From Scatophagus argus (Eukaryota; Chordata; Actinopteri; Scatophagidae): a stretch of 64,000 nucleotides of DNA. Numbering within the stretch: the stretch's first letter is position 1; each line of letters begins with the position of its first letter. The stretch lies in NCBI RefSeq assembly GCF_020382885.2, contig NC_058501.1:5084001-5148000 (forward strand). The letters are read 5' to 3'. The translations under genes were made by a program, and so were the position numbers. Shown here in pieces: positions 6,364 to 8,499 of the stretch. The notes below the pieces were generated by a model. That model worked only from the letters and a program-made list of their open reading frames with translations, did not search any database and was not told the origin of the DNA.

Positions 6364-8146
6364 TCAGCTCTGTGTGTCCAAAGCCTCGCACTGCTCAGCA
6401 TGCATGTAGTTGTTATCACCAATAATGACAAAGTTTAGACGGGAGCCGTGGATGCTGATGTTTGAAGGATCTGTTAGTGGAAGAGGAGGAGGAGGAGGAG
6501 GAGGAGTAGAGGTCTGTGCTGATCCGTGCTTTCCACAGCCGCAGCTGCACCTCACCTGGCCTGTAACACAAGAGCAAAGCCCTAGATGGTTACTCTTCAC
6601 ACGTGCACTTTGAGTTATATGTCTAGTACAACTGCTACAAAAACAAGCAATCAATACAACACATCATAGTATGAATTGTGGCTCAAACTGCTTAACATTT
6701 CTTGAAATATGCTATAAAAAAACATTAAGCCATAACCCACCATACATTTGGAGCTCAGATTCCTGCATTAAAGGCTGACTTTCTGCCACCATAGGTTGGT
6801 AGGTGTCGTTCCCGATGGCACAGTTGACCAAGGTGGAATTGCTAATGTTCACAATCATAATTGTAGACGGAGGACCCTGGTGAGCTGCTGTATATGAGTG
6901 GGCAAGGGAGAGAAAGTGGAAAAGGGAAGAGAATGTAAGAAGGGGAAGCTGTTGTTCCAGAGTGATGTAAAAGCAGAAATACATCATTATAATGAAGTTC
7001 CATGAAGTTCTAGAAAGAACAGAAAAAGCTTCCCAGGCAAATGTGCTTTGGAAATGAGTGAACACTCACTGATCTGGTCAAAGGGTTTTGTTCAAGTTAA
7101 CTGTATTCATGTAAAAGGTAGACCGCACTGAGGCATAAAATGATGGAAAACCCGCTTCACCTGCTTCAAAAATTCGTGATTCAAATGTTTATTTGCTTAA
7201 TACACTTCATGTGTAGTGAAATGCAATGTGGCACAACTAAAGCTGTGCTAAAAGGCTAACGTGAAAAATAACAACAAAGGACATTTCCTTTGGGATGGAA
7301 TACAACATAAGACCACAAAAGATTAAAAAAAAAAGATTAGAGGAAAGAATAAAGACTTCATTTAAACACAAACTAACCTTGTGTAGTTTTCTCCTTGGTA
7401 GACTGATCATTTAGAGCTTTAAAGACAGTGAAAGAGGTAAAGTTATGATTTTACTCGTGATAAATTGTCTTTGTGCATGTATGCTGCCATAGAAATATGA
7501 CAATAAAGTGCAGATCATAAAGATATGTCATGTTTTTGAGAAATAAAGGCAAACTTTCAAATTGAAAGATACGGACCCTGGACCAGGACATAACCTAACA
7601 ATAGAGGCAATGAGAACAACATTTATGGTTGTCATCATTCATGAATATAGAAATGATTCTTACCTGGAAACTGTGTGACCCTTTCACACAACATAGAGTC
7701 TATGGGACAACAGAAGAGCTGACAGGCTCTTCTGCAGCTCTTGAGAGCCATCCTGTGCACCACCTGGATAATTCTCTGTATGTTGGTGGCTTTATAATTC
7801 ATCACCTGAAAGAGAGAAGAAGACAGGAGTGCCCTCAGAACTAACACAATGACATCATCTTGAGATGTACCTTCAGGTGGTGGGTTGGGGATTTTTTTTT
7901 TGCGGGTGGCATTGCCCACGCCACAATGCCACCTGCTGCTCAGCTTTGTTTTTCTGAGTCACCTGTTGTTTTTCTCGGGGATGGGAACTTTTTTTTTCTG
8001 TCATTAGGAAAAAAAAAAACAAAAAAAACAAAACAAAACACGCCAATGACAATGTCCAGAAGTGGTAGCATTTGGAGTCCAAGATTATTACTTCTTGTAA
8101 TAATCAACATCCACATTTGTATTATATATATATATATATGTTGCAC

Positions 8147-8194
<48 letters not shown>

Positions 8195-8499
8195 CGTGTG
8201 TGTGTGTGTGTGTGTGTATGTGTGTGTGTATTAGCTAGATAAAAGGTGTTCGAGGTCTCTTTTTCTTCAGCTGTAGCTGACTGGGTTATATCTCTTCAGG
8301 TGTCTATCTTACAGTCGGATGTGATGTTGTTTCTTTAATTCAACAAACGAATTCTTAACTCTCCAAAGCATCTCAACGTGTTCGTAGAAGCAATAAACAA
8401 ACAAATAAAACTCACCTGATTAAACGTCGAACTTTCCTTCATTTTACCAAAATTGCTGTTATTAAAGTGACTCAGAGCTAAGGAGTCGTAGCTGCTCAT
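6364..8499 (-). CDS. Small protein with two RHIM-like motifs, unrecognised family
   Basis: I do not recognise this gene. Five minus-strand exons, 8499-8416, 7805-7664, 7416-7378, 6884-6741 and 6560-6364, join in frame to 201 residues. All four introns have GT-AG ends and the phases (0,1,1,1) match. Residues 29-75 are basic and cysteine-rich (KSCRRACQLFCC). Residues 97-120 read IMIVNISNST then NCAIGNDTYQPM. Residues 171-189 end NFVIIGDNNYM. Both resemble the RHIM of RIPK1 and RIPK3, whose core is I/V-Q-I/V-G followed by an Asn/Tyr-rich stretch. The second is closest, with GDNNY intact. In both, the core Gln is replaced (CAIG, VIIG). Between them lie a CSCGCG cluster and seven prolines (156-162). 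No kinase, death, TIR or Z-alpha domain is seen. Known RHIM proteins form amyloid-like signalling assemblies in necroptosis and NF-kB signalling. A role as adaptor or decoy is inference. The start ATG has A at -3. Confidence 0.75.
6482..6512. repeat. GGA repeat encoding a polyproline run
   Basis: A tandem GGA/GAG tract on the plus strand. On the minus strand it is CCT codons giving seven consecutive prolines in the RHIM gene's last exon. Such a tract is likely length-variable. Confidence 0.8.
8122..8230. repeat. TA/TG compound microsatellite
   Basis: A run of TA units passes into a TG run of about 45 bases. It lies in the first intron of the minus-strand RHIM gene (between 7805 and 8416). 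Confidence 0.9.

Follow-up and report, generated by a model that had tools for sequence, protein, structure and literature searches.

Does a small gene of the fish Scatophagus argus encode a further RHIM protein, of which, to our knowledge, RIPK1, RIPK3, ZBP1 and TRIF are the only human members? The question arises from a window of 64,000 nucleotides (the whole stretch of DNA analysed here; contig NC_058501.1, positions 5,084,001 to 5,148,000), for which a previous, sequence-only reading had proposed, at 6364..8499, a protein of 201 residues with two RHIM-like motifs, interpreted as a stand-alone fish RHIM adaptor or inhibitor. If true, an extra fish adaptor of this kind would alter the reading of fish necroptosis and NF-kB signalling. 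ZBP1 is reported absent from every fish species examined (PMC12119088), and fish TRIF is described as lacking the C-terminal RHIM in a carp paper that nonetheless refers to mutations of the RHIM in the TRIF of zebrafish and of carp (PMC8421551). An additional adaptor would matter because fish, on these accounts, have no ZBP1 and, by one of them, no TRIF RHIM.

The exon structure proposed for the locus was borne out at the level of sequence. On the minus strand, five exons are joined at GT-AG sites and read in phase from ATG to TGA over 202 codons. Exon 1 (8416..8499) encodes residues 1-28 and carries the start ATG, with an A at position -3, and a donor (CAG/GTGAGT) that matches 9/9 consensus positions. 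Exon 2 (7664..7805), preceded by an acceptor with 15/15 pyrimidines, encodes residues 29-75 plus the first nucleotide of codon 76 and contains an amphipathic, cysteine-rich segment; exon 3 (7378..7416) measures 39 nt, and its skipping would be phase-neutral. Exon 4 (6741..6887) has a NAGNAG acceptor that gives a protein of 202 residues or, with the second AG, of 201, which fits the length originally claimed. Exon 5 (6364..6560) contains the CSCGCG cysteines, the poly-proline run, the second motif and the stop codon. Overall, the donors of the four introns match 9, 8, 8 and 7 of the 9 consensus positions, and the acceptors have 10-15 pyrimidines per 15 positions. The two peptides that had been quoted for this protein, IMIVNISNST... 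and NFVIIGDNNYM, are both present in the translation. Intron 1 contains a long AT/GT dinucleotide repeat at 8121-8240.

Located 87 bp upstream of the ATG, the palindrome GCGCATGCGC (8586..8595), which we take to be an NRF1-type site, has no other exact copy in the window. It is contained in a CpG peak at the 5' end of the gene (observed/expected 1.14 in the 200-base bin from 8400). A scan of 4601-6364 revealed two candidate poly(A) signals on the minus strand, AATAAA (5304..5309) and ATTAAA (5472). To judge from its sequence, the gene would probably be transcribed constitutively.

The coding signal was scored against a codon-usage reference of 757 codons from putative coding stretches of the window, part of them Pfam-supported and the rest judged by eye (including a 236-codon stretch with no Pfam match). 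The called frame obtained the top score among the six frames in 5/5 exons. The joined coding sequence scored a modest -9 bits, and its two alternative frames scored -123 and -75, a comparison in which a fixed penalty per stop in the other frames favours the called one. Ranked by the same measure among 1594 stretches free of stops, exons 4 and 5 belong to the upper 14%, and exons 1-3 do not stand out. When the protein was searched against its own assembly (570.7 Mb, 48 contigs), 11 matches were scored: the four longer exons of the gene itself, the only ones with E < 0.001, and seven others of lower significance (E 0.003 to 5.2), six of which align through the poly-proline run and one (L009) through a weak alignment elsewhere. 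At this sensitivity, the 11 candidates included no paralogue or second copy of the gene. A scan of viral contigs with residues 94-202 found no relatives. Among the matches listed from the open-licence literature, judged by title or abstract start, none was a paper on this 201/202-residue protein, and the gene is probably unstudied as far as that literature shows. Most likely this is a real, single-copy small fish gene, plausible though short of proven.

Other features were seen in the window. At 25156-26640 (+) there are ORFs that read like xylose isomerase, and none of the four that were tested matched a Pfam family at E 0.01; such a gene would merit attention in a fish. An open frame of 281 residues with many S, T, E, P and Q (53883-54728, minus strand) likewise matched no Pfam family at that E value. 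On the plus strand, 0.6 kb upstream of the gene, an open stretch at 9124-9265 (MEEITNHIQTNTVYQPMGDNHMDEFAEQ...) echoes the YQPM and GDN of the motifs, probably by chance. A squalene epoxidase gene lies at 29687-32581 (+), with one exon matching Pfam SE (E 1e-15) and another matching FAD-binding families, and an rnf144b-like gene at 13712-21622 (+), with two IBR domains by Pfam and, by eye, a RING-like exon near 13.8 kb and the 3' end. In zebrafish, the neighbours of oxr1a include sqle and rnf144b, according to PMC7598701.

Two papers give the RHIM tetrad as (V/I)Q(V/I/L/C)G (PMC9182532; PMC9444067), and the naturally occurring tetrad variants that a third tested in RIPK3 (VQFG, LQIG, VQSG, CQIG and TQIG) all retain the glutamine (PMC12119088). 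At the tetrad position, motif 1 (TIMIVNISNSTLVNCAIGNDTYQPM; 6790..6864, minus strand) reads CAIG (CAIG-NDTY) and motif 2 (ISIHGSRLNFVIIGDNNYM; 6403..6459, minus strand) reads VIIG (VIIG-DNNYM; the tetrad at 6418-6429). Both are devoid of the glutamine, and neither contains the (V/I)Q(V/I/L/C)G core. The insect cryptic RHIM (cRHIM) offers a looser yardstick. Its V-x-I-G core, in which the glutamine is optional, is present in motif 2, although four residues are weak evidence, and absent from motif 1. As reported in PMC9531809, insect cRHIMs such as VHIG can lack the glutamine, and overexpressed mosquito cRHIM proteins give strong ThT fluorescence.

We then compared both segments with the Pfam RHIM profile (PF12721; curated cut-off 20 bits), the check that the sequence-only reading had itself proposed, and both failed. 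In two trims, motif 2 scored 10.3 bits (E 0.57) and 9.8 bits (E 0.82), with an alignment that covers seven residues only, IGDNNYM. Neither motif 1 nor the whole 202-residue protein matched any Pfam family at E up to 10, a search in which the HMMER filters discard the majority of matches beyond about 0.1; the earlier statement that the protein carries no kinase, TIR or Z-alpha domain agrees with this result. Control peptides built from the RIPK3 and RIPK1 chains of the PDB, to which filler tails were added, scored 36.7 and 33.7 bits. When, as a diagnostic, a glutamine was put into the tetrad of motif 2, the score rose to 22.3 bits; the missing glutamine is thus what keeps this motif below the cut-off. 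The same substitution in motif 1 still gave no RHIM match, so that motif 1 is no RHIM even with the glutamine. Searched against the PDB at E up to 10, the motif 2 peptide found no RIPK chain and one chain of a bacterial cell-wall-anchored protein (E 7.1). The proposal of two RHIMs was accordingly rejected by profile, both segments being under the Pfam cut-off or silent. By the family's own definition, the predicted protein is outside the RHIM family.

A Pfam RHIM search of the whole genome (E up to 10, 25 candidates scored) listed a single place, on C13 (L019/L020, about 9.96 Mb), and neither of the window motifs. This place reads SLYIHNASGIQIGSNNMMNI, with an IQIG tetrad, and is flanked by frames that read, by eye, as a protein kinase and a death domain, for which reason we call it ripk1; it is the apparent ripk1 of this genome. 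No ripk3 or ticam1 RHIM was among the matches listed for the 25 candidates scored, which does not imply that these are absent.

How far, then, does motif 2 stand out from its surroundings? By similarity to three RHIMs, it ranks first among the 4670 six-frame segments of the window; motif 1 comes tenth, and six of the segments that score higher than it are unrelated. Shuffled sequences reached the score of motif 2 against RIPK3 in 0/5000 cases, against the PDB RIPK1 in 51/5000 and against the genome's own RIPK1 in 120/5000; for motif 1 the corresponding numbers were 150, 133 and 2619 of 5000. With an HMM built from three RHIM sequences, the frame of motif 2 obtained an E value of 0.016 in the window, which scales to about 140 in the genome. 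The relaxed pattern [VILC]x[VIL]GxxNx[MLI], to which motif 2 conforms, occurs 3 times in the window versus 2.7 expected from 20 simulated windows, and the strict tetrad 6 times versus 8.0. Six places of the genome, motif 2 included, encode the core [VI]GDNNY, compared to 12 for the backward control pattern. The five other places lie in frames of 19-59 codons, and by eye none of them has a RHIM-like I-x-I strand before the core, but the core of one, ILDIGDNNYL (L013), looks about as RHIM-like as that of motif 2. These pattern counts indicate that, in a genome this large, a match of seven residues does not exceed what chance would give.

The likeness between the two motifs was also analysed. As an internal repeat by BLOSUM it was not significant and was discarded: shuffles scored as well in 1016/20000 cases for the 32-mers and in 2426/5000 for the two halves. 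Both motifs contain the six-residue pattern [VI]G[ND][ND][NT]Y, which occurs at 30 genome places (101 for the backward control), and among these 30 the two motifs are the sole neighbours, 393 bp apart in consecutive exons of one strand. By simple arithmetic, fewer than 0.001 same-strand neighbours within 1 kb would be expected, a figure that overstates the case since the pattern was drawn from these very motifs. This coincidence is more striking than the BLOSUM repeat, though chosen post hoc. Taken together, the claim of two RHIM-like motifs beyond chance was not upheld: for motif 1, silent in Pfam, it is unsupported, and motif 2, at 10.3/9.8 bits, is a sub-threshold near miss without the key glutamine. 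What keeps the RHIM idea alive is the window rank of motif 2, the six-residue pattern and the existence of glutamine-less insect cRHIMs (PMC9531809).

If the motifs are not RHIMs, what might the protein do? Residues 34-53 (7731..7790, minus strand) form a candidate amphipathic helix; of 5000 shuffles, 0.9% attained its helical hydrophobic moment. The largest 18-residue hydrophobic moment of the protein begins at residue 37, and residues 37-46, inside the proposed helix, are also beta-prone on a propensity scale. A cluster of cysteines follows (residues 52, 56, 60, 61 and 68; 7686..7736, minus strand), which could serve palmitoylation or metal binding. Further on, three more cysteines (142, 144 and 146) lie ahead of seven consecutive prolines (residues 157-163; 6484..6504, minus strand). 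Beta-prone peaks coincide with both motifs (TIMIVNI, and RLNFVII/FVIIGDN), and the protein is probably mostly disordered, especially in its middle. From these features, and with helix, anchoring and stacking steps that rest on simple propensity scales, a scheme can be proposed. The amphipathic segment and the cysteine cluster would anchor the protein to a membrane or a partner, and the poly-proline region would act as a flexible linker or as an SH3/WW-type docking site. Once the protein is clustered, IVNIS...AIGNDTY and ISIHG...VIIGDNNYM may make weak beta-stacking contacts, and the C-terminal segment would behave, at best, as a cryptic RHIM without glutamine. Docking and self-assembly are both our conjecture. 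Our best reading, to which we would give slightly less than an even chance, is thus that of a real single-copy gene encoding an adaptor-like protein of 201/202 residues that has no Pfam domain and works in the manner just outlined.

Three other readings have to be weighed against it. The protein could be a true but divergent (cryptic) fish RHIM adaptor or decoy, in which motif 2, and perhaps both motifs, would co-assemble with the RIPK1 RHIM and nucleate or cap a signalling amyloid. In mammals, that nucleating or capping role is played by ZBP1 or by the TRIF RHIM. The shuffles against RIPK3, none of which reached the score of motif 2, its first rank in the window, the proximity of the two six-residue patterns and the presence in the same genome of an apparent RIPK1 with an IQIG RHIM all argue for it. 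So do the glutamine-less and ThT-positive insect proteins (PMC9531809), the reported lack of ZBP1 in fish (PMC12119088) and, by one paper, of the TRIF RHIM (PMC8421551). However, the latter paper also cites the fish TRIF RHIM mutations mentioned above, and the remaining tests point the other way: Pfam scores under the cut-off or silent, two tetrads without glutamine, no RIPK chain in the PDB for motif 2, no listing of either motif genome-wide, an HMM match with an E value of about 140 at genome scale, a relaxed pattern about as frequent as expected, the [VI]GDNNY core in five short frames elsewhere, one of them about as RHIM-like, and motifs that are not significantly alike by BLOSUM. We regard this reading as unlikely. 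The full version of it, a fish adaptor devoid of kinase, TIR and Z-alpha domains in which two glutamine-less RHIMs behind a membrane-docking helix nucleate or cap the RIPK1 RHIM amyloid, strikes us as quite improbable.

It is rather doubtful, too, that the protein is a small adaptor or regulator outside RHIM signalling altogether, with a GDNNYM likeness due to chance and a conserved function in the N-terminal helix and cysteine part. This would fit the failure of every formal RHIM test and the ease with which short beta-segments find matches, as exemplified by that of motif 1 to DP1 (see below); two similar motifs so near each other would not be expected, though the pattern was picked after viewing both. 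The modest codon score, finally, would be accounted for if the gene model were partly or wholly wrong, representing a non-coding transcript, mis-joined exons or a decaying gene. We judge this very unlikely, given the consensus splice sites, the compatible phases, the promoter features and a called frame that is best of six in every exon.

Our preferred reading, that of an adaptor-like protein with at most a cryptic RHIM-like end, leaves part of the earlier interpretation standing. A small, stand-alone protein without kinase, TIR or Z-alpha domains by Pfam is indeed predicted; its identity as a RHIM protein was not supported: the profile fails, the glutamine is missing and the genome search lists ripk1 only. 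The ordinary outcome, an uncharacterised small gene with a motif resemblance that is a near miss, is the likelier one, and this near-miss status is useful to know before others build on the RHIM claim.

Comparison with known proteins places the candidate as follows. The best match of the whole protein in the PDB was the transcription factor DP1 (E 0.013; 4 listed, no RHIM chain), over about 20 residues of motif 1 (IIVNTS..VIDCSISND). Pfam, however, listed DP neither for the native protein nor for motif 1 in its native form, and a diagnostic motif 1 altered at one residue reached 12.4 bits with DP (cut-off 24.7). Kinship with DP1 was set aside as very likely chance, the native sequence having no DP profile match. 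With the RIPK3 and RIPK1 RHIMs (PF12721), motif 2 has in common the upstream I-x-I strand and the hydrophobic-x-I-G core, and with the PDB chain of RIPK3 also GDNNY. It differs from them in lacking the tetrad glutamine, in having two extra residues between strand and core and in scoring about 10 bits, compared to 34-37 for the RIPK peptides, and the fish protein has neither a kinase nor a death domain in Pfam. ZBP1, a cytosolic adaptor with more than one RHIM, is similar in that two candidate motifs lie in one small protein, a resemblance only; by Pfam, the fish protein lacks the Z-alpha domain. Unlike the insect cRHIM proteins, it has no peptidoglycan-recognition or death domain in Pfam, and its motif 1 (CAIG) lacks the V of their core. 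Motif 2 nonetheless has a glutamine-less V-x-I-G core like theirs (VIIG versus VHIG, the latter from PMC9531809), a likeness that does not in itself imply common ancestry. If the cryptic RHIM reading were true, the protein would be a vertebrate counterpart of these insect cRHIMs, in animals that are reported to lack ZBP1.
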